Shown one piece after another: positions 44,950-54,258 of a stretch of DNA of 64,000 nt. Each line of letters begins with the position of its first letter. Position 1 is the first letter of the stretch. A program made the position numbers and the translations under genes. The stretch lies in the NCBI RefSeq assembly GCF_013912065.1, contig NZ_JACESA010000009.1, positions 88,524 to 152,523 on the forward strand, read 5' to 3'. The DNA is from Brevundimonas sp. (lineage in GTDB: Bacteria; Pseudomonadota; Alphaproteobacteria; Caulobacterales; Caulobacteraceae). The notes beneath the pieces were generated by a model. That model was not told the origin of the DNA, did no database searches, and worked only from the letters and a program-made list of their open reading frames with translations.

Positions 44950-45876
44950 TCAGCGTCCCGGCGTATAGGGCCGCTTGGCCCGCCAGTCCTCGGCGAACTT
45001 GACCAGGGCCGCGTCCGGCTCGTCCGGCAGGGTCACGACCAGCCGGGCCAGCAGGTCCCCGCGCCGTCCCTGGGCGAAGGCGCCCCGCCCCTTCAGCCGC
45101 AACAGCTTGCCGGAGTTGGAGCCCGCCGGGATCGTCATCTGGACCGCGCCCTCGGGCGTCGGCACCCGCACCTTTGCGCCCAGCACCGCATCGGGAACCG
45201 ACACCGGCAGGTCCATGGTCAGGTCCGCCCCCTCGCGCTTGTAGATCGGGTGCGGCTCGATCTTCAGTTCGATCAGGGCGTCGCCGTTCTCGGCCCCGCG
45301 ACCCGGCGATCCCTGGCCGCGCAGCCGGATGGTCTGGCCGTCCGCCGCCCCCTTGGGAATGGTCACGTCCAGCGTCCGCCCGTCCGAGAACTGGATCCGC
45401 TTCGTCGCCCCGGCGATGGCGTCCTCCAGGCTGATGTCCAGCGTCGCCCGCACGTCCTGGCCGCGCGCCGTGAAGTCCCGCGCACCGCGTTGACGCCCGC
45501 CCCCGCCGAACATGCCGAACAGATCGTCCAGATCGACGCCGTCGAAATTGGCCCGCCCGCCCGGTCCCCCGGCCCCGGAAAATCCGCCGCCCTGACCGAA
45601 CGGACTCGCGCCCGCGCGACCGCCGCCGCCGCCGAAGCCCCGGTACTGTTCGTTGCCGTCGTTATCCAGCTGGCCGGCGTCGTACTTGGCCCGTTTCTCG
45701 GCGTCGCCCAGGATGTCGAAGGCCGCCGTCACCCGCTTGAACTTGTCCTCGGTGATCTTGTCGCCGGGGTTCTTGTCGGGGTGCAGTTCCTTGGCCAGGT
45801 TGCGGAACGCCTTCTTGACCTCGTCCGCGCTCGCGCCCTTCGAAACGCCCAGTTCCTTATAGGGGTCGCCTGCCAC
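44950..45876 (-). CDS. DnaJ-domain co-chaperone (CbpA-like)
   Basis: This 308-aa J-protein stimulates DnaK. The J domain is at the start (YKELGVSKGASADEVKKAFRNLAKELHPDKNPGD with the HPD motif), then a Gly/Phe-rich linker, and two C-terminal substrate-binding beta-domains (DVRATLDISLEDAIAG, GQTIRLRGQGSPG, TIPAGSNSGKLLRLKGRG). There is no zinc finger, so it is a type II (CbpA) protein. The start is GTG at 45876 after GGAG. Confidence 0.92.
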   Translation of the reverse strand: MAGDPYKELGVSKGASADEVKKAFRNLAKELHPDKNPGDKITEDKFKRVTAAFDILGDAEKRAKYDAGQLDNDGNEQYRGFGGGGGRAGASPFGQGGGFSGAGGPGGRANFDGVDLDDLFGMFGGGGRQRGARDFTARGQDVRATLDISLEDAIAGATKRIQFSDGRTLDVTIPKGAADGQTIRLRGQGSPGRGAENGDALIELKIEPHPIYKREGADLTMDLPVSVPDAVLGAKVRVPTPEGAVQMTIPAGSNSGKLLRLKGRGAFAQGRRGDLLARLVVTLPDEPDAALVKFAEDWRAKRPYTPGR

Positions 45877-45963: not shown

Positions 45964-46908
45964 CTAGACCAGCCGGATTTCCGCCTCGACGCCCCAACCG
46001 AACCCCTCGCCCCATTGCGCCACGGCGATCCGCGCCGAGGCCGGCGCCCCGCCCGGAAAATCCGCCGCCAGCGCCGCCGCCGGATAGACCAGGGTCGTCC
46101 CCTCCGCCTCCATCGTCCGCACCACCGTCCCGCCGTCCAGCACGCGCGCCCGGAACCGCATCGGATCGACCGGCGTCGGATCGCCGTCCCAGCCGTCGCC
46201 GTACAGCCGCACCCGCGGCGTCCATCGCACCGTCACACCCTCCACGCCCGCCTCTATCGCCAGACCGGCCGGCGACCACGGCCGCGCATGCAGCCCGCCC
46301 AGTGTGAACGCGACCTCGGCGAATCCCGCTCCGCCCGGCGCCGCCCCCGCCGGCCCGGCGCGACAGACCAGCGGCAGGCCCCGCTCGTTCAGCCCGATCT
46401 CCGCCCGCGACAAGGCCGCGTCCAGGAACACCACGATCGCGCCTTCGACCGCGCCGACCCGCATCGTCGCCTCCACAACGAAATCCGAAGTCTCGACGCC
46501 GCCGACCGCGACCCGCACCGCCCCCTCGACCGGCTTGGCGATCGGTCGTTCCACGTCTCCGTAACGCTTGATCAGCGGAAACCCCGTCCGCGCCCCGTCC
46601 CCGACGCCCAGGACCTGGTCGCCGGCCGAGACCGTCCCGCCCGGCCCGCACGACTTGAAGTCGGCGAAATCCTTGAACCGGAACCCGTACAGCCGCCCCC
46701 GCCGCGCCTCGAAAAAGGCCGTCAGCTCGGCCATGTCGTCCAGCGATCTCAGGTTCGCCCCGATCAGGTATCGCCTGCGCCCCAGGGCCCAGGGCGTCGA
46801 ACGCCGCTCGAACCCCGACGCCAGGGTCGCGATCTCCGTCCGCCGCTCCACCCCGCCGGTCGAGCCGAACGCCAGCCGCGCGGGCAGTCGCACCTCATGA
46901 AAGCCCAT
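45964..46908 (-). CDS. In-frame fusion of GTA gp12 N-terminus to gp15 C-terminus (remnant)
   Basis: This 314-aa ORF joins two GTA tail genes. Residues 1 to about 155 match the DUF2460/GTA gp12 family (FHEVRLPARLAFGSTGGVERRTEIATLASGFE in parts, RRGRLYGFRFKDFADF, LIKRYGDVERPIAKPVEGAVRVAV). From about residue 158 on, the sequence looks like the end of the gp15 host-attachment/baseplate protein (LNERGLPLVCRAGP, HARPWSPAGL, TPRVRLYGDGWDGD, RIAVAQWGEGFGWG). gp13, gp14 and about 1000 residues of gp15 would have been lost between. The frame is open, so a stable hybrid is possible, but a deletion relic is more likely. Assignment rests on remembered family patterns. Confidence 0.75.
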   Translation of the reverse strand: MGFHEVRLPARLAFGSTGGVERRTEIATLASGFERRSTPWALGRRRYLIGANLRSLDDMAELTAFFEARRGRLYGFRFKDFADFKSCGPGGTVSAGDQVLGVGDGARTGFPLIKRYGDVERPIAKPVEGAVRVAVGGVETSDFVVEATMRVGAVEGAIVVFLDAALSRAEIGLNERGLPLVCRAGPAGAAPGGAGFAEVAFTLGGLHARPWSPAGLAIEAGVEGVTVRWTPRVRLYGDGWDGDPTPVDPMRFRARVLDGGTVVRTMEAEGTTLVYPAAALAADFPGGAPASARIAVAQWGEGFGWGVEAEIRLV

Positions 46909-47003
46909 CCGAACCTGTCCCCTGTTTCACTTGTTCGCAAAGCGCCGCTCGTCCATGCTCGCCAAACCGCGGCCGAGGGGCCGTACCGAGACGGGAGCGA
47001 AAA

Positions 47004-47708
47004 ATGCGCGGCGAAATCCTCAGCTTCGACGGCACGGCCGGAACCGGCCTGATCAGCGGCGACGACGGCGCGCGCTACAGCTTCGTCTCATCCAGCCTTC
47101 AGTCGCCGGCCGTTCCCGCCCCCGGCGTCCGCGTCGACTTCGTGCCCGAGGGCGAAGAGGCGACGCAAATTCTGATCCTGGCGGGCGGCCCGTCCACCGT
47201 CGGCGTCGCCGGCGGCCTGTCCGCCCCGACCGACACCACCGTCGCCGGCTTCGACTGGCAGAAGCTGTTCCTGTCGTTCGAGGGGCGCACCCGGCGCAGC
47301 CATTTCTGGATCGGCTGGCTGATCCTGCTGGGCGTCGGCGTCGTCGCCAACTGGCTGCCGATCATCGGCGGCCTGATCTCCCTGGCCCTGATCTGGCCCA
47401 ACCTGGCCATTTCGGTGAAGCGTCTGCACGACATGGGCCTCACCGGCTGGCTGATCGCCATCCCCTGGGTCGGCTCCATCGTCTTCTTCATGGTCGGGCT
47501 CGTCATGGTCGGCATGGGCGCCGTCGCCGGCGGCATGACCGTCAACGACTACGAGGGTGATCCCGCCGCCATTCTCGCCCTGATGGGTCCCGGCATGATC
47601 GCCTTCATCCTCTCCGGCCTGATTCCCCTGATCTTCCTGCTGTGGATCGGCCTGGTCGAAGGCCAGAAGGGCGACAACCGCTTCGGCCCCAATCCCAAGG
47701 GCGAATAG
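47004..47708 (+). CDS. Membrane protein: cold-shock-like N-terminus fused to DUF805
   Basis: This 234-aa protein begins with a small beta-domain like cold-shock proteins (MRGEILSFDGTAGTGLISGDDGARYSF, residues 1-50). A linker leads to a DUF805 membrane domain (FLSFEGRTRRSHFWIGWLILLGVG, NLAISVKRLHDMGLTGWLIAI, GQKGDNRFGPNP) with about four hydrophobic helices. Its function is unknown. It stands on the opposite strand inside the GTA remnant, between gp12/15 and the tape-measure end, so it was probably inserted or left by a rearrangement. Confidence 0.82.
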   Translation: MRGEILSFDGTAGTGLISGDDGARYSFVSSSLQSPAVPAPGVRVDFVPEGEEATQILILAGGPSTVGVAGGLSAPTDTTVAGFDWQKLFLSFEGRTRRSHFWIGWLILLGVGVVANWLPIIGGLISLALIWPNLAISVKRLHDMGLTGWLIAIPWVGSIVFFMVGLVMVGMGAVAGGMTVNDYEGDPAAILALMGPGMIAFILSGLIPLIFLLWIGLVEGQKGDNRFGPNPKGE

Positions 47709-47764
47709 GATCCGACGCGAGGGCGAGTGGTCGGCGGTTCGCCGCCACTCGTCACTCTCCACGC

Positions 47765-48149
47765 CTACATCCGCCGCGCGCCCAGACTGACCGCCCGCGC
47801 CAGCATCTGGGCGATCTGGGCCTCGGACCGCAACAGGGCCGGCGCCCCGCCCTCCACCGCCACATTGACCGTCACTCCGCCGCCCGACGCCGGGCCGACC
47901 TCGCCACCGGTCGTCGGCCGGAACACCTCCGGCCCCCGCTCCCCGACCAGATAGGCGCCACCGCCCAGCACCGGCCCGCCGTCCGCCCGCGCCCCGCCGA
48001 AGCTGGACATCGCCGCCTGGATCGCCGCGCTCAGCCCTTGGCCCGATCCGCCCGAACTCGCCGCGTTCACCGCCTCCAGCACCGCCGCCGCCTCGGCCGC
48101 CCGCACTGGCGCCGCCTCGATCCCGTCGCGTCCGAACTCATCCGCGATA
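47765..48149 (-). pseudogene. C-terminal remnant of a GTA tape-measure protein (gp11-like)
   Basis: About 125 codons keep the characteristic tape-measure end: GGARADGGPVLGGGAYLVGERGPEVFRPTTGG and VTVNVAVEGGAPALLRSEAQIAQMLARAVSLGARR. The long helical body of a tape-measure protein is missing. It adjoins the truncated portal gene in a different frame, so no functional fusion is made. The position fits the GTA order. Confidence 0.7.
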
Positions 48150-48645
48150 CGGCCAGACCCACCGACCGTCCATCGACCGAATAGTCCCAGGCCTCGGGCC
48201 AGCCCGACCGGCCCGGCGCCACCTTCACCCGGTCGGACCGCAGCGCCCACAGCTCGTCCGGCGCTCCGTCGCCGTCGGCGTCCCCGGTCGCCTCAATCCA
48301 GGCGTTGCCCGACACCTGCAGCGCCCCATAGACCGCCTCCATCAGCACCGCCCCCGACTGTTCGGGATTGGGCCGCCGCATCAGCCGGGCCAGCGGATGG
48401 GCCTCGTCCCGCGCCCCGTCCACGAACACCGCCAGCGGGATCGAAGCCGCCGCCTCGGCGATCATCCGGATGCAGCGATAGGCCACGGCATTCCTCTGAT
48501 ACCCCTCCCGCGCCAGACTGGCGTAATCGTTGGGCGTCCACCGCGGCCGCCCCACGCCCGACAGCAGCACCGCCGCCCGACTGGCCTTCGCCTCGGGCGC
48601 GCGCACACGCCCCGCCTGGCCGAACGGCCACCGGATCGAAACCAT
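48150..48645 (-). pseudogene. Truncated GTA portal protein (gp3-like)
   Basis: The first about 162 codons of an HK97-type portal protein are present (WTPNDYASLAREGYQRNAVAYRCIRMIAEAAASIPLAVFVDG, RPNPEQSGAVLMEAVYGALQVSGNAWIEA, WALRSDRVKVAPG). Family members are near 400 aa. Similarity ends around 48160 and a frame change joins it to tape-measure sequence; the frame then stops at 48067. The deletion would have removed the rest of gp3, protease, capsid and tail-tube genes. Confidence 0.75.
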
Positions 48646-48668
48646 CGAAATCTCCCTGAACCAAAAAT

Positions 48669-48727
48669 CCTCCCCCTTGGGGGAGGGGGACCGCCGCGCC
48701 TCTTGCGCGGGGGTGGAGGGGGCGCAA
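48669..48727. repeat. Palindromic intergenic repeat, partial copy
   Basis: CCTCCCCCTTGGGGGAGGGG-type palindrome followed by GACCGCCGCGCCTCTTGCGCGGGGGTGGAGG (in two pieces). It is similar in style to the element at 35312-35454. It separates the portal start from the acyltransferase end. Confidence 0.5.
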
Positions 48728-48739
48728 CGCCCCCCGACC

Positions 48740-49831
48740 TCAGCCGCTCTTCAGCGGATCAAGCGGTCGCGTCGCAACCCGCCCCCGGAACGAGAGCCAC
48801 CGCAGCAACGGCCGCTCCACCCCGACATGCACCGCCGCCCCGGCCGCCAGACTGGCGCCGATGGTCAACACCACCACCGCATTCCCGGGCAGGACCCCGC
48901 CCGCCTCGAACACCCGTCCCAACACGCGGATCACCAGCACATGGACCAGATAGACGGCGTAGGAGGCGTCCCCCATGAAGATCAGCCCGCGCCGCACCGG
49001 CCCCGGTTCGCCCTCCGTCCGCGCCCGCGCCGCCAGCCCCAGCACCACCAGTCCGGCCGGCAGGCCCCAGATGACCACCCGCGCCAGCCCGACCAGAGGC
49101 TGATTCAGCGCCGCTTCCCCGTCGATCTCGCCGTATCCGAACCCCAGCGACAGCCCGAACCCGACTAGGCCCAGCCCCACCGCAGCCAAAGCCGCCGCCC
49201 TAGGCAAACCCCGACCCCAGCGCGCGATCCCGACCCCGATCAGGAACTCCAGCACCAGGGGCGAACCGACGAACCGCAACACCGGCGTCGCCACGACCAG
49301 ACCGGCGACCACCCCCGCCACGGCCCCGACGACCAGCGCCCATCCGGCCCGTCCGCCGCCGGCCATGGCCAGGCCGAACCCGGCGTAGAACAGCATTTCG
49401 AAACACAGGGTCCATCCCGCCCCCAGGGCCGGAAACGTCATCTCCAGCCCGCTGAACGGCCAGAACAGAAAGCTCGCCGCCGCCACATCGGCCGTCAGGG
49501 TCCCGCCCCGCGCCATGCCGATCAGGATCGGCAGCGACAACAGCCAGTAGATCAGCGCCACCCGTATGAACCGCCGCCGCAGGAAATCCCCCGCCGCCCG
49601 CAGTCCCGTCTGCCCCCGCGTCGTCGTGGCGATGATGAAGCCGCTGATCACGAAGAACAGATCGACCCCCGCCGCCCCGAAATCCTCCAGCGTCCCGCCG
49701 GCCAGAACCGTCTCCAGCCCCAGCCGCGCCGTCGTCAGATCGACCGCATGGGCGACCACGACCCCCGTCGCCGCCACGAACCGCAAGACCTGGATCTCGT
49801 CGAACCTCTCCCCCATGCCCGTCGGTAACAT
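48740..49831 (-). CDS. Acyltransferase 3-family membrane O-acyltransferase
   Basis: This 363-aa membrane protein belongs to the Acyl_transf_3 (OafA-like) family, with about 10 hydrophobic segments. Motifs are IQVLRFVAATGVVVAHAVD (conserved Arg and His), VDLFFVISGFIIA and GWTLCFEMLFYAGFG, and near the end FMGDASYAVYLVHVLVI. It would acetylate a surface polysaccharide. It lies 21 nt after the spike-like SGNH gene on the same strand, so they may be cotranscribed. The start could also be ATG 49816. Confidence 0.88.
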   Translation of the reverse strand: MLPTGMGERFDEIQVLRFVAATGVVVAHAVDLTTARLGLETVLAGGTLEDFGAAGVDLFFVISGFIIATTTRGQTGLRAAGDFLRRRFIRVALIYWLLSLPILIGMARGGTLTADVAAASFLFWPFSGLEMTFPALGAGWTLCFEMLFYAGFGLAMAGGGRAGWALVVGAVAGVVAGLVVATPVLRFVGSPLVLEFLIGVGIARWGRGLPRAAALAAVGLGLVGFGLSLGFGYGEIDGEAALNQPLVGLARVVIWGLPAGLVVLGLAARARTEGEPGPVRRGLIFMGDASYAVYLVHVLVIRVLGRVFEAGGVLPGNAVVVLTIGASLAAGAAVHVGVERPLLRWLSFRGRVATRPLDPLKSG

Positions 49832-49852
49832 CGACGCGCGCGGAACCCAACC

Positions 49853-50983
49853 TCAGATAATCACACGCGCCCGCACCGCCTGTGCGATCAGCGCCTGACC
49901 CGCCGCGTTCGGATGGACCGCGTCGAACATCAGCCCCGGCGCGAAACCTCCGCCGAACAGGGCCGCCCCGTCGATCGGCGCCGCCAACCCCTTCTCCGCC
50001 GCCACCTCCACGGCCGCCGCCGCTATCGCCTGTTGCGCGGCGTAGCTCGCCTTGCCCTGGGCCGGGTCCGACGGCGTCCCCGTCATCATCAGCACGTCGC
50101 CGGTGATCAGCGCCCGGTCGACCAGCAGCCCCAGATTGGCCCGATAGGCCGCCACCGCCGTCCCATTGTTCCAGTCGTTGATGGTCAGGCAGATCACCGT
50201 CAGGTCCGCCCCCGCGACCGGCAGTCCGCCATAGGCCCGATACGGCTGGTCCGTCGTGGTCCAGTCGGCGACCCGCGCCCCGCCCCAGCCGCCGTTGATC
50301 ACCTGCACCCGCCGCAGCTCGGACTTCCAGGCCGCGCCCCCGGCGATGAAGACCGCCCCGCCCGACGCCCGCCGCACCGAAATTGGGCCGTTCGTCTCGG
50401 GAAAACCGACCGTATGCCGCTCCAGCGCCGCGGGCTTCAGCGTGTCGATGGTCGCCCGCACCACCCCGTCGGTCTCGACCGCGATCACCCCCAGGGCAGT
50501 ATTGCACACGGCATAGAGGTCGAACCGGTCCACCGGCCCGTCCGGCTGGAACGACCAGGTCTCGGTCCCCCAGTCCGGGGTGGTGAACAGCTTCCCGCCC
50601 AGACTGGTCAGGCTGGTCACGCTCCATCCGCTCCCCAGGCTGAGGCGCGGGTCATAAACGCCGTATCCGCCGCTCGCCAGATCGCCGGCGCCGGCTCCCG
50701 CCAGCGCCGCCGCCGACGCCGGCAGGCCGCCCACGCTCATCAAGTCCGCCAGACGTTTCGGCCAGGCCGCCCCGCGCCCGTTCGGCGTCCAGCCGCCCGC
50801 CACGGCGCCGAACCCCTGGGCCACGCTGTCGCTGACGACCAGCAGCCGCGCGTCCCGCACCCCCGCCAGCATGTTCCGCACCGCCGCCGACCAGCGCGGC
50901 AGATCAGGGACATCGAACTGCGGCCGCCCCGGCGCCAGGACCCCGCCCGGCGCCAGGACGGCGGCCTCGACCGCCGGCCTCAA
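49853..50983 (-). CDS. SGNH/GDSL hydrolase, putative GTA head-spike protein (GhsB-like by position)
   Basis: This protein (about 376 aa) has an SGNH hydrolase fold: block I LLVVSDSVAQGFG (catalytic Ser in SDS), an Asn in TINDWNNG, and block V DAVHPNAAG with the Asp-x-x-His pair. Between blocks is a long beta-rich insert. There is no signal peptide. The start TTG at 50983 overlaps the preceding gene's stop (TTGA). It directly follows a GhsA-type spike-base gene. In Rhodobacter capsulatus ghsA/ghsB encode GTA head spikes that bind capsule. The hydrolase call is good; the spike role is inferred. Confidence 0.75.
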   Translation of the reverse strand: MRPAVEAAVLAPGGVLAPGRPQFDVPDLPRWSAAVRNMLAGVRDARLLVVSDSVAQGFGAVAGGWTPNGRGAAWPKRLADLMSVGGLPASAAALAGAGAGDLASGGYGVYDPRLSLGSGWSVTSLTSLGGKLFTTPDWGTETWSFQPDGPVDRFDLYAVCNTALGVIAVETDGVVRATIDTLKPAALERHTVGFPETNGPISVRRASGGAVFIAGGAAWKSELRRVQVINGGWGGARVADWTTTDQPYRAYGGLPVAGADLTVICLTINDWNNGTAVAAYRANLGLLVDRALITGDVLMMTGTPSDPAQGKASYAAQQAIAAAAVEVAAEKGLAAPIDGAALFGGGFAPGLMFDAVHPNAAGQALIAQAVRARVII

Positions 50984-51267
50984 TCGAACACCGCCACGAC
51001 CTGGGTCGCCGTGGTCCCGGTGGCCAGCACGCGCCGCACCTGGACCGGCAACCAGCCGACCGGATGATTGGCGAAGGTCACGGCCTCCCCGTCCTCACCC
51101 CCGACCGTCAGCACACGGATATTACCCGCCGCCCCGACATACAGGGCCTTGGCGTAGATCGGCAGATCGACCGTATCGCTGGCCGTCACCACCGCCGCGC
51201 GCCGCCCCGGCCCGCTGGCGTCCCGCCCATGGTTCAACAACCCGTCCCGCTCCGCGATCCCCGGCAT
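50980..51267 (-). CDS. Spike-base protein, RCAP_Rcc01079 (GhsA) family
   Basis: This small protein (95 aa) starts at ATG 51267 after GGAGAG. It reads PGIAERDGLLNHGRDASGP, VVTASDTVDLPIYAKALYVGAAGNIRVLTVGGEDGEAVTFANHPVGWLPVQVRRVLATGTTA in parts, the pattern of the phage/GTA spike-base family. Its TGA overlaps the next gene. It supports the view that head-spike genes were part of this GTA locus. Family recall is moderate to good. Confidence 0.7.
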   Translation of the reverse strand: MPGIAERDGLLNHGRDASGPGRRAAVVTASDTVDLPIYAKALYVGAAGNIRVLTVGGEDGEAVTFANHPVGWLPVQVRRVLATGTTATQVVAVFD

Positions 51268-51294
51268 GTCTCTCTCCTTCGATGAAAATGATTT

Positions 51295-51355
51295 CTCCCT
51301 CCCCCGCGGGGAAGGGTTGTCGAGCCAAAGGCGAGACCGGGTGGGGACGGCCGGT
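51295..51355. repeat. Palindromic intergenic repeat, partial copy
   Basis: CTCCCTCCCCCGCGGGGAAGGG followed by GAGCCAAAGGCGAGACCGGGTGGGG (segments) resembles the other intergenic palindromes in the window. It lies between the spike-base gene and the toxin-antitoxin pair. Confidence 0.45.
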
Positions 51356-51411
51356 GCCCCGCGCCGACCCGCTAAGTTCCCCCCGCCCTTGCTTCGTGCT
51401 AGTTTCAAACC

Positions 51412-51684
51412 ATGACGATCCACGTCGATATCGCTCGTTCGCAGGCCACCCTGGCCGAACTCGCCGCCCAGGCTGCTAGCGGCGAAGAAATCGTCCTGTC
51501 CAGCGATGGTCAGGCGGTCGCCGTCATCCGCGCCGCCGAGGTCTCGGAGAAGCCCCGATTTCGTTTCGGCGCCCTGGCCCATCTCGGTCCCTTGACCGAA
51601 GAAGAGGCCAACCTCTTTCTACAGCCTGATCCCGATTTTATCGAAGCGGCCGAATCCGCCGATGAAGACGATCTCTATCGTTGA
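51412..51684 (+). CDS. Phd/YefM-type antitoxin
   Basis: This 90-aa protein has the N-terminal Phd/YefM DNA-binding fold (HVDIARSQATLAELAAQAASGEEIVLSSDGQAVAVIRAAE) and an acidic C-terminal tail (DPDFIEAAESADEDDLYR) for toxin binding. It is followed by a PIN toxin with TTGA overlap, the standard antitoxin-toxin order. It faces plus while the surrounding GTA genes face minus. Confidence 0.85.
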   Translation: MTIHVDIARSQATLAELAAQAASGEEIVLSSDGQAVAVIRAAEVSEKPRFRFGALAHLGPLTEEEANLFLQPDPDFIEAAESADEDDLYR

Positions 51685-52100
51685 GCGGGGTTCTGCTCGA
51701 CACTCATGCGCTGATCTGGAGTCTATTCGACCAGCCTCAGATGACGGCTTCGGCGCGATCTTGGATCGATCCGGCAAAGCCCATCTATGTCAGCGTCGTC
51801 AGTATCTACGAAATCGACAACAAGCGTCGGCGCGGAGGGGGTCGAGCGGCCGACGTCCATCTGCATCGCATGCCCCGCGACATGCCGTCCGCCCTCCCTC
51901 AACTGGGCTTCACCCTGCTTCCCATCGAGCCCGAAGTCGCTTAGCGCGCGGCCAATCTGCCCATAGACGCGCGCGACCCTTGGGACCGTATCCTCGTCGC
52001 TCAGGCCCTGACGCTGGACATACCCCTCATCAGCGCCGACGCCCCGCTACGGGTGTGCACTGAACAACACCCCGACACCGCTGGCGTCATAGTCTTCTGA
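51681..52100 (+). pseudogene. VapC-type PIN-domain toxin interrupted by an in-frame stop
   Basis: The frame starts at TTG 51681 (SGVLLDTHALIWSLFDQP with the first PIN Asp; VSIYEIDNKRR with the Glu). It meets a TAG at 51942-51944 after 87 codons. The same frame continues past it with RAANLPIDARDPWDRILVAQALTLDIPLISAD, the C-terminal PIN half carrying the remaining acidic residues, and ends at 52100. The toxin is therefore probably inactive, while its antitoxin frame is intact. It overlaps the end of terL by 14 nt on the opposite strand. Confidence 0.82.
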
Positions 52101-53325
52101 TCCTCGGCCCCTCCGACCGCTTCTCCAGCAGCAGTCGCGACACGCCCCAGACCAGAGCGTCGGCCCGGTCCGGGCTCGGCCCGCCTTCGCAGCCCAGGGT
52201 CAGCATCTCCTCCTCCAGGGCCGGGAAGTCGTCGCAGTGGACCACCCGTCCCTGTTCGTACAGCAGGGCCACCGGCTCGGCCCGCGCGGCCTTGGACCGC
52301 GAGGCGTGCACCAGGATTACCGGCGCCGGGCATTCGGACTGGTTCAGCACATTGCGCACCATGTCGCCGCCCTGGTTCGCCTCGGCCGCCACCTCGTGTG
52401 CGCCGAACTCCCGCGCCGCCTTTCCCACCGCCGCCGCCCAGCCGCCGGGCGACAGGCCCCGCACCGTCCGGTCGGCCAGGACGAAGGCCTGACGTCCCTT
52501 GCGCCCCACCACCACTATGCCGCAGGCGTCGCCGTGGGCGCTCGCCGGCGGATCGACCGCCACGACCACCCGCTCCAACTCGACCGGCCGGGCGCCGCGC
52601 GCCCGCTTCAGATCCTCGATTTTGAACAGGGCGCCCTCCCCCTCGACCACCAGCCCCTCCAGCTCCTGGGCCGCCAGCCGCGTTCCGCCGTACAGATCGT
52701 TCAGATGGTCCAGAAAGCCCGGCGACAGGTTCGTCGCATTGGCGGCCGTCTCCGCCCGATCCGTCACCGTCCCCGCCTCGACCATCAGCCGCCGCAGCGC
52801 CGGGATCGGCCGGGGCGTCGTCGTCACCGCCAGCCGGGGGCCGGACCCCAGCCTCAATCCAAACCTCAGGTTCGACAGCACCGCCTCCGGCCGCCGCCAG
52901 GCGCAGAATTCGTCAGCCCAGGCGGCGTGAAACTGCGGCCCGCGCAGACTGTCCGGGTCCTCGGCGGAGAAGGCGTAGGCGGCCGAACCGTTCTCCCACA
53001 ACAGCCGCCGTCGCCCCGCCTCCCAGCGCGGCCGGTCGCCCGGTTCGGCCAGGGCCTTGATCCCCGACGCCCCCTCGACCATCACCTCGCGCACGTCGTG
53101 CAGGGCGGGTCCGACCAGGGCCAGCCTCATGCCGGCGTTGTTCCGCGCCGCCAGATCGACCCACACCGCCCCGGCGAAGGTCTTTCCCGACCCCCGCCCG
53201 CCCAGCAGCAGCCAGGTCCGCCAGTCGTCGTCCTGCGGCTCAATCTGATGTCGATGCAGCAGGCTCTCGCGGCAATGCCGCCTTAGCTCGAGTTCGTTCT
53301 GCGGCTTCTGCGCGCTTTTCCTCAA
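52087..53325 (-). CDS. GTA/phage terminase large subunit (gp2-like)
   Basis: The DNA-packaging motor reads as an intact frame. It has Walker A LLLGGRGSGKTFAGA, Walker B AAWADEFCAW, and a C-terminal RNase H-like nuclease region with acidic residues in VVAVDPPAS, VAAEANQGGDMV and DRADALVWG. About 412 aa from TTG 53325; the frame stays open to GTG 53439. The true start is uncertain because it overlaps terS. It matches RcGTA gp2-type terminases. The later GTA genes are deleted, so packaging by this locus alone is not expected. Confidence 0.85.
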   Translation of the reverse strand: MRKSAQKPQNELELRRHCRESLLHRHQIEPQDDDWRTWLLLGGRGSGKTFAGAVWVDLAARNNAGMRLALVGPALHDVREVMVEGASGIKALAEPGDRPRWEAGRRRLLWENGSAAYAFSAEDPDSLRGPQFHAAWADEFCAWRRPEAVLSNLRFGLRLGSGPRLAVTTTPRPIPALRRLMVEAGTVTDRAETAANATNLSPGFLDHLNDLYGGTRLAAQELEGLVVEGEGALFKIEDLKRARGARPVELERVVVAVDPPASAHGDACGIVVVGRKGRQAFVLADRTVRGLSPGGWAAAVGKAAREFGAHEVAAEANQGGDMVRNVLNQSECPAPVILVHASRSKAARAEPVALLYEQGRVVHCDDFPALEEEMLTLGCEGGPSPDRADALVWGVSRLLLEKRSEGPRIRRL

Positions 53326-53638
53326 GTATGAGATCCAGCCGGTCGCAGTTGGCGACCAGTTCGCGTCGCAGTCGCTCGGTTTCCTCGGGGTCGTAGTTGC
53401 GTCCACCCATCCCGTCCTCTTCGCTGTCCGCCTCGACACGGGGTCGGATCGCCTCGACCAGCCGGGCCGACCGCGCGATCACGCCGATGCGCCGCGCCAG
53501 CTTCTCCGCCCCGTCGGCGTCATTGATCTTCTCGTTGCAGACGACCTCCGCCGTCTCCTCGACCTTGGTCTTCAGCTTGTGGAACAGGGGCGCCAGCCAG
53601 CCCCCGCCCGCCCCGCTCTCTTCGCTATTTCCCGTCAT
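53240..53638 (-). CDS. GTA small terminase-like protein (gp1-like)
   Basis: This protein of about 132 aa starts at ATG 53638 (MTGNSEESG); a GTG at 53695 is the alternative. It is charged and helical (LFHKLKTKVEETAEVV, RRLRRELVANCDRLDLIL-like segments). It lies just upstream of and overlaps terL, the position of gp1/TerS in GTA clusters. The identification comes mainly from position and helix pattern. It is the 5' end of the remnant. Confidence 0.65.
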   Translation of the reverse strand: MTGNSEESGAGGGWLAPLFHKLKTKVEETAEVVCNEKINDADGAEKLARRIGVIARSARLVEAIRPRVEADSEEDGMGGRNYDPEETERLRRELVANCDRLDLILEEKRAEAAERTRAKAALPREPAASTSD

Positions 53639-53762: not shown

Positions 53763-54215
53763 TCAGCCCCGCTCGACCGCCCATTCCGGGGCCTCGAAAT
53801 CCAGGGCGTCCTCGGGCTCGGCCAGCGACAGTTCCGAAATCGTCTGTCCCCTCACCGACACCCCGGCCGTATGCACCGTCTCCGGGTCGCCCGAGACCAG
53901 CGGATGCCAGGCCGCCAGCGGCCGCCCCTCGTGCAGCCGGCGATAGGCGCAGGATTTGGGCATCCACTGCAGGGCCTCGATATTGTGCGGCGTCAGCTTG
54001 ATGCAGTCGGGCACCTGGGCCTTGCGGTTCGCATAATCCGAGCAGGAACAGGCCTGCGGATCGAACAGTTTGCAGTGGACCCGCGTCGGGATCACCTCGC
54101 CCGTATCCTCGTCCTCGAACCGGATGACGCAGCACAGGCCGCACCCGTCGCACAGCCCCTCCCACTCCGCGGGGGTCATCTCGGTCAGGGTCTTGGTCTG
54201 CCAGTAGGGTCGCAT
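53763..54215 (-). CDS. YcgN/UPF0260-family cysteine cluster protein
   Basis: This 150-aa protein contains [51 protein letters not shown] (in parts) and [32 protein letters not shown], the pattern of the UPF0260 (YcgN) family with a probable metal-binding Cys cluster. The ATG at 54215 has GAGG upstream; ATG 54227 is possible. Function is not known. Confidence 0.9.
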
Positions 54216-54258
54216 GGCGGGCCTCATACGCCCGCAAATCGGCGATGTCGCGGCGTTT

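Follow-up and report, generated by a model that had tools for sequence, protein, structure and literature searches.

Gene transfer agents (GTAs) are phage-like particles by which bacteria hand DNA to one another. Does a row of GTA genes and gene fragments in a Brevundimonas genome mark a GTA that has been lost, and what became of the genes that stayed behind? The locus that raises this question lies on the minus strand of contig C45 of Brevundimonas genome G000, within the 64,000-nucleotide stretch that was analysed (the window), and is flanked by a YkgJ-like and a DnaJ-like gene. It is very probably a vertically inherited locus of the type described in Rhodobacter capsulatus (RcGTA) that has lost its particle-building genes. 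Six remnants lie in RcGTA gene order (terS, terL, portal, gp11, gp12, and gp15), as an initial annotation of the sequence had stated, and are backed by matches in Pfam, in PHROGs, and to RcGTA chains in the PDB. That annotation had also listed the protease, capsid, head-tail, and tail-tube genes as absent, which proved correct: the locus no longer has the protease, capsid, connector, or tail-tube genes, nor gp13 and gp14. Seven of 12 core genes were counted as missing and four as partial; the partial gp13 in this count is probably a cross-match, with no gp13 counterpart in the gene chain of the window. The set by which a functional GTA is recognized (head, portal, connector, tube, and baseplate) is incomplete here.

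Identity of the remnants

The structural matches point consistently to RcGTA. The portal remnant, about 40% of a portal, covers positions 2 to 107 of 321 of the Pfam model and matches the RcGTA portal Rcc01684 (E 6e-33). The gp12 part covers positions 1 to 151 of 205 of DUF2460 and matches Rcc01695 (E 4e-47). The tail to which it is fused matches residues 1136 to 1300 of the 1304-residue RcGTA chain 6tba_8A (E 5e-10), which, judged by its length, is the megatron; in the accessible text of PMC7296036, this region corresponds to the fibre-binding domain of that protein. The major capsid of a relative also matches an RcGTA chain, and the PDB sequence search gave no solved structure for the gp11 piece or for terL. 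Terminase_6N and Terminase_6C span the whole of the window terL, and the terS start codon agrees with that of relatives. As far as the accessible text of PMC6854486 goes, a GTA-type TerS is short and lacks an N-terminal DNA-binding helix-turn-helix (HTH). The window TerS has 132 residues and HTH-free homologues, with no HTH family found in any of the 14 homologues from GTA clusters scanned at E 0.1.

The same YkgJ-like and DnaJ-like flanks were found at the genus loci read, which fits vertical inheritance at a conserved host site, and conserved gene order between shared flanks excludes chance as the source of the remnant layout. It is therefore highly improbable that the locus is a defective prophage unrelated to GTAs that carries GTA-like genes by chance. 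Genes for heads, tails, and packaging are of phage origin in any case, but the shared flanks, the RcGTA order, the TerS without an HTH match, and best structural matches that are RcGTA proteins all speak against such a prophage. No phage version was found at this site in any locus read.

Deletions and their breakpoints

Breakpoints were placed by alignment with L158, the syntenic locus of a sister species (genome G289), and the comparison bears out the earlier view of an RcGTA-type cluster shrunk by internal deletion. The first large deletion runs from about codon 157 of the portal gene to about codon 60 of gp10.1 (Table 1), and the second, with about 4,607 nt absent, runs from about codon 151 of gp12 into gp15. 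The two deletions proposed initially are thus both present, but a third, of about 117 to 144 nt within gp11 (near 48066 to 48092), has to be added. Likewise, the gp12 and gp15 pieces are both there, although as a single open frame of 314 codons and not as separate genes. Among the matches listed from 299 family genomes, sorted by score, the full-length fusion was matched only in G000.

Together, these three deletions took out most of the particle body: the protease gene, the tail-tube gene, and the genes between them, along with gp13, gp14, and most of gp15. The first genes of the cluster, terS-terL and a head-spike module (spike base, SGNH hydrolase, and acyltransferase), are left as open frames. 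With the particle genes deleted, no capsid can form, and the window locus presumably makes no particles. A capsid search gave no match in G000, which is 99.98% complete, whereas 116 of the 131 genus genomes have a match, some of them truncated or prophage-like; the lost genes have therefore not moved elsewhere within the assembly. That the joins are assembly errors in a locus that is in fact intact appears very improbable. G000 is represented by a single assembly of 45 contigs, but the junctions are internal to a 152-kb contig, about 16 kb from its nearer end, there is no capsid match in a nearly complete genome, and comparable deletions occur in the single-contig genomes G250, G231, and G360.

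Deletion ends are concentrated near the end of gp15. Ten of 17 deletions that end in this gene do so, in different species, at codons 1061 to 1121 of 1242 (reference numbering from blastn or tblastn ends, some uncertain by at least 10 codons, and some of the genomes are related). This 60-codon stretch contains the join near 46464 in the window and those of L110, L113, L128, L163, L164, L165, L174, L185, and L186. A regulatory element overlapping the 3' end of gp15 was considered as a cause and rejected: four-fold sites are not more conserved there (0.51 to 0.59 in the last intervals versus 0.61 overall), and in G012 it is a piece of the capsid gene, its first 30 codons, that stops about 90 bp before the DnaJ-like gene.

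The features of the locus are collected in Table 1. Since the DNA is GC-rich, the gene list was drawn up with a codon model. The names YkgJ-like, DnaJ-like, and antitoxin-like, along with those of the terL catalytic motifs, are ones that we take to apply from the sequences themselves.

Table 1. Features of the GTA remnant and its flanks in window coordinates
Feature	Position	Strand	Basis or remark
YkgJ-like host gene, upstream anchor (presumed name)	53763..54227	-	Same neighbour in relatives
terS (gp1), 132 aa	53240..53638	-	Kept upstream of terL in relatives
terL (gp2), full length, presumed catalytic motifs kept	52087..53325	-	Pfam
PIN-domain toxin-like gene	51681..51944	+	Weak Pfam PIN match, below cut-off; relatives
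Antitoxin-like partner of PIN gene (presumed name)	51412..51684	+	Same pair in L107, L116, L138
Head-spike-base-like gene (GhsA / Rcc01079 homologue)	50980..51267	-	PDB matches
SGNH/GDSL hydrolase, possible head-spike fibre or enzyme	49853..50983	-	Pfam Lipase_GDSL_2, 1e-11
Acyltransferase-3 family gene beside spike genes	48740..49816	-	PF01757, 1e-26
N-terminal part of portal (gp3), truncated near codon 157	48160..48645	-	Pfam, alignment, PDB
Deletion join 1, portal / gp10.1	48159/48160		5,373 nt absent relative to L158
gp10.1 end, gp11 start, and gp11 codons 91-176 (of 176)	47765..48159	-	Tape-measure-like PHROGs
DUF805 gene between gp11 and gp12	47004..47708	+	Pfam; many relatives
In-frame fusion of gp12 (codons 1 to about 150) and gp15 (last about 165 codons), join near 46464	45964..46908	-	
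DnaJ-like gene, downstream anchor (presumed name)	44950..45876	-	E 1e-60 or better in 130/131 genus genomes

Constraint on the retained genes and timing of the loss

All of the complete genes retained in the window are open frames. Ratios of nonsynonymous to synonymous substitution rates (dN/dS) were obtained pairwise, from short segments. For gp12, the remnant has values of 0.14 to 0.18, compared with 0.11 to 0.19 for intact pairs. The SGNH gene has values of 0.16 to 0.20 to three relatives and 0.35 to L171, compared with 0.12 to 0.14 for intact pairs (0.13 for L158-L160). The window terL has values of 0.28 to 0.35 to its cluster relatives; close intact pairs have 0.12 and 0.14, and two others have 0.30 and 0.33. 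For the portal remnant, a three-point hand estimate (window, L158, and L105) gives about 0.25 on the window branch versus 0.08 for L158-L105. These values are consistent with a loss late on the window branch, with little relaxation in gp12 and the SGNH gene, and the loss of the GTA at this locus was probably recent. A gene of the GafZ family (PF20057) is still found in G000.

The same data could be read as a sign that the remnant is kept for a function of its own, with terL and the spike module now working independently of particles, on DNA or at the cell surface. In favour are purifying selection on the complete retained genes, which are still open, and the case of G360 (L165), where terL and almost every other GTA gene have been lost but the spike base, the SGNH gene, and 158 acyltransferase codons remain. 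However, recent loss accounts for the same data, and the spike module is absent from many complete Brevundimonas clusters (the SGNH gene is found in 8 of 52). We therefore consider a retained function unlikely.

Several points count against the interpretation as a vertically inherited GTA cluster that recently lost its particle genes. The identity of terL and the gene order, taken alone, would also fit a defective prophage. The dN/dS of terL lies above that of the close intact pairs yet equals that of others, which says little in either direction. The complete retained genes are open and constrained, so some function may be retained, and the joins rest on one assembly.

Repeated loss within the genus

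The locus was surveyed across the genus with the DnaJ-like gene, present in 130 of 131 genomes, as the anchor. A cluster was called complete when pooled tblastn matches covered 80% or more of every one of the 12 core genes, a measure that ignores frame breaks. Twenty of the 131 genomes fell outside the survey (contig ends, tiny fragments, contamination, no DnaJ match, or not retrieved). Among the 111 loci surveyed, 52 are complete, confirming the expectation that syntenic clusters in relatives would be complete at the same site. The initial annotation supposed that GTAs work in relatives, for which complete genes and low dN/dS do not amount to an assay. Another 15 are complete except for terL, and 23, including the window, are eroded. 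Five are near complete, with a retrieved stretch that is too short or of low similarity (G018, G002, G009, G148, and G284), and 16 were left unclassed at contig ends or in short retrieved stretches. Apparent frame breaks were seen in two of the 52 complete loci (G203 and G363) and in two of the 15 without terL (capsid and gp15 in G130; gp9 in G359).

The eroded loci differ in their deletions: G019 lost the portal to most of gp9 and kept gp10 to gp15, and in G030 the head genes remain and the loss covers gp13, gp14, and most of gp15. GTA loss has thus been repeated within the genus. According to the accessible text of PMC10883770, GTAs have been lost repeatedly across the class, for which a "cheater" hypothesis has been offered; following that published idea, cells that carry the window locus may still receive DNA from GTA producers. 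Pseudogenization of GTAs is therefore already published, and the window is an ordinary case of a known process. What differs here from the pseudogenized clusters of that study, as far as its accessible text goes, is the resolution of the breakpoints, of a series across the genus, and of the genes that were retained.

Spike module and passenger genes

The initial annotation attributed the layout of the locus partly to inserted genes, an explanation that we reject: the spike-base, SGNH, acyltransferase, and toxin-antitoxin genes occupy the same place in the complete clusters of some relatives. The block between terL and portal is shared by clusters that keep their structural genes (L107, L108, L162, L171, and L158). 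A spike-base-like gene is found at 33 of 111 genus loci (20 of the 52 complete ones), the SGNH gene at 20 of 111, the acyltransferase gene at 18 of 111 (6 of 52), and the PIN gene at 6 of 111.

The spike-base-like protein matches PDB entry 6tb9, "Head spike base Rcc01079" (E 4e-6 over 80 residues), and the spike base in 8cjz (E 3e-4). For the SGNH protein, the PDB search returned only an esterase chain at E 0.002, and the RcGTA spike fibre (Rcc01080) was unmatched. This protein adjoins the spike base as GhsB does and may be a spike fibre or a spike enzyme, and the acyltransferase may alter the surface sugar that the spike meets.

Other genes recur in the gaps of these clusters. The PIN/antitoxin-like pair is found between terL and portal in L107, L116, L138, L248, and L250. 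A DUF805 gene lies on the opposite strand between gp11 and gp12 in many intact loci, in two or three copies at some (copies in L107, L108, and L119). The gap between protease and capsid ranges from tens of bases to more than 4 kb (L105, L110, L111, and L161) and probably holds extra genes in some loci. Short dispersed repeats, direct and inverted, are found in cluster gaps (window 51294 to 51365; L163 13155 to 13291) and match other gaps of relatives.

Comparison with known GTAs

The window resembles RcGTA, as known from the accessible text of PMC7296036 and PMC6854486, in its order of terS, terL, portal, gp11, gp12, and gp15 and in the matches of its portal, distal tail, gp15 end, and spike base, and of a relative's capsid, to RcGTA chains. 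It differs in the deletion of the particle genes and in the position of the spike genes: these are placed between terL and portal in the window, but R. capsulatus encodes them at an ectopic locus (PMC6854486, accessible text).

The GTA of Caulobacter crescentus (CcGTA) belongs to a related bacterium, has terL near the start of its cluster, and is functional, according to the accessible text of PMC9632790, PMC11150451, and PMC13236601, whereas the window has lost its particle genes. The GafZ-family regulator kept in G000 is a further likeness. The Caulobacter locus L075 carries the genes from terL through gp13, and its stretch ends within gp14. No spike-base or SGNH gene was found in named Caulobacter loci among the matches listed.

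Clusters without terL

The 15 clusters that keep the structural core without terL (L158, L160, L169, L189, L191, L196, L198, L203, L205, L207, L212, L213, L237, L247, and L255) are under the same constraint as complete ones in the pairs compared. For the portal, dN/dS is 0.05 to 0.15 in four pairs without terL and 0.07 to 0.12 in seven complete pairs; for the capsid, the values are 0.10 to 0.18 (five pairs) and 0.07 to 0.22 (seven pairs). These clusters thus show no obvious decay, apart from split matches in G130 and G359. The distance from the YkgJ-like gene to the portal is only 170 to 263 bp in six of the 15. A further locus, L161, is a partly seen cluster of this type. Parsimony on a tree built with FastTree from GTA and DnaJ-like proteins gives at least eight changes in the presence of the cluster terL.

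Each of the 15 genomes without a cluster terL has another terL match elsewhere (weak in G362, 1.8e-46), compared with at least 16 of the 52 with a cluster terL, with presence read by hand from the matches listed. This association has a Fisher P value of 9e-7, with relatedness not taken into account, and of 8e-6 if the weak second terL matches of G247, G221, and G368 are counted as positive. Among the 16 that have terL matches both in and outside the cluster, two (G332 and G350) have internal stops.

Solitary terminases

The terL genes found elsewhere are solitary GTA-derived terminases, present as terS-terL pairs or as TerS::TerL fusions (L125, L127, L130, L136, L137, L256 to L261, L264, and L286 to L315). 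In seven genomes (G017, G031, G013, G376, G361, G010, and G006), a terS-terL pair adjoins a gmk-like gene. In other genomes, one protein of about 570 to 740 residues combines an N-terminal part with a complete TerL; it occurs at several places, one of which adjoins an oxidoreductase gene present in 130 of 131 genomes. The names of these neighbours (gmk, oxidoreductase, and others) are our own assignments, presumed from sequence. In L125, L127, L130, L136, and L137, the neighbours read like ordinary cell genes, and no other GTA gene was matched within the retrieved stretches.

The solitary TerLs account for 34 tips of the TerL tree (33 distinct genes, with one place included twice) and form a single clade (support 0.961) nested among Caulobacteraceae GTA TerLs (path node supports of 0.97 and 0.82). 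The tree took genes that were complete enough, and its rooting on five phage sequences is weak (0.10). What we take to be the Walker and nuclease motifs are largely kept where covered. Low dS was considered as proof of horizontal spread and set aside: the dS of solitary TerLs is below that of host genes in most of 12 pairs, but that of the adjoining host genes is low too.

The front part of a fusion can differ where the TerL part does not. At one place, G019 differs little from G278 and G289 in the TerL part (dN of 0.02 and 0.05) and greatly in the front part (dN of 0.64 to 0.83), whereas G278 and G289 are alike in the front part (dN of 0.04 to 0.07). Weak HTH_7 matches were found in 5 of 15 fusion N termini (the best, 9e-5, just under the cut-off), HTH_23 matches in three, and an HTH_28 match in one, versus none in 14 cluster TerS proteins. 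The front part of one fusion was matched in 11 Brevundimonas genomes, along with one weak match outside the genus, among 299 genomes, a query that other front parts would escape. In G000, the solitary terminase looks broken, with its front at C16:34225-34983, its end on C24 (L103), and about 254 codons absent; the two pieces probably belong to one gene.

In a literature search that covered few subscription papers, we found no published description of solitary GTA-derived terminases. The accessible text of PMC7947584 places 136 of 527 RcGTA-like TerLs in "small" elements with only one to five RcGTA-like genes and cites the opinion that prophages are the likelier explanation for such elements. 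In contrast to those, the solitary terminases described here have nonphage neighbours in the flanks read; they belong to a single clade, and many are TerS::TerL fusions.

Possible packaging in trans

One reading joins these observations, and we hold it tentatively, rating it a little short of probable. Based upon co-occurrence and constraint, a clade of GTA-derived solitary terminases with a swappable TerS part may package DNA into GTA particles in trans. Acting from several housekeeping loci, as a TerS-TerL pair or as a fused protein, these terminases would have freed the cluster from the need for a terL of its own, with constraint on the particle genes persisting. Should the TerS part recognize DNA and choose where packaging begins, any such gene would favour the DNA around it and spread through recombination, either as a one-gene GTA parasite or as a cargo selector. 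The weak HTH matches and the swapped N termini are hints only at the sequence-specific packaging of its own DNA into another element's particle that would mark a phage satellite or packaging parasite. The window would be the mirror image, with motor and spikes kept, the particle gone, and the solitary terminase broken.

Other genomes fit packaging in trans less well. A capsid match without a TerL match was found in G211, G029, G340, G375, G377, and G162, and G253 has a capsid match with a TerL match only at E 4e-4. Three of these genomes (G211, G162, and G253) have an eroded locus; the other four (G029, G340, G375, and G377) are on broken contigs. Furthermore, the eroded genomes G196, G326, G236, and G024 still carry solitary terminases, which thus do not strictly follow the particle.

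Implications

With its exact breakpoints and a dense series of relatives, the window is a good place to date the loss of a GTA. A cluster scored as incomplete for want of terL may be a full system whose motor is encoded elsewhere. If packaging in trans takes place, a motor with its own DNA recognition part would lead some GTA particles to carry nonrandom DNA, which would bear upon whether GTAs serve altruism or are open to capture by selfish genes.

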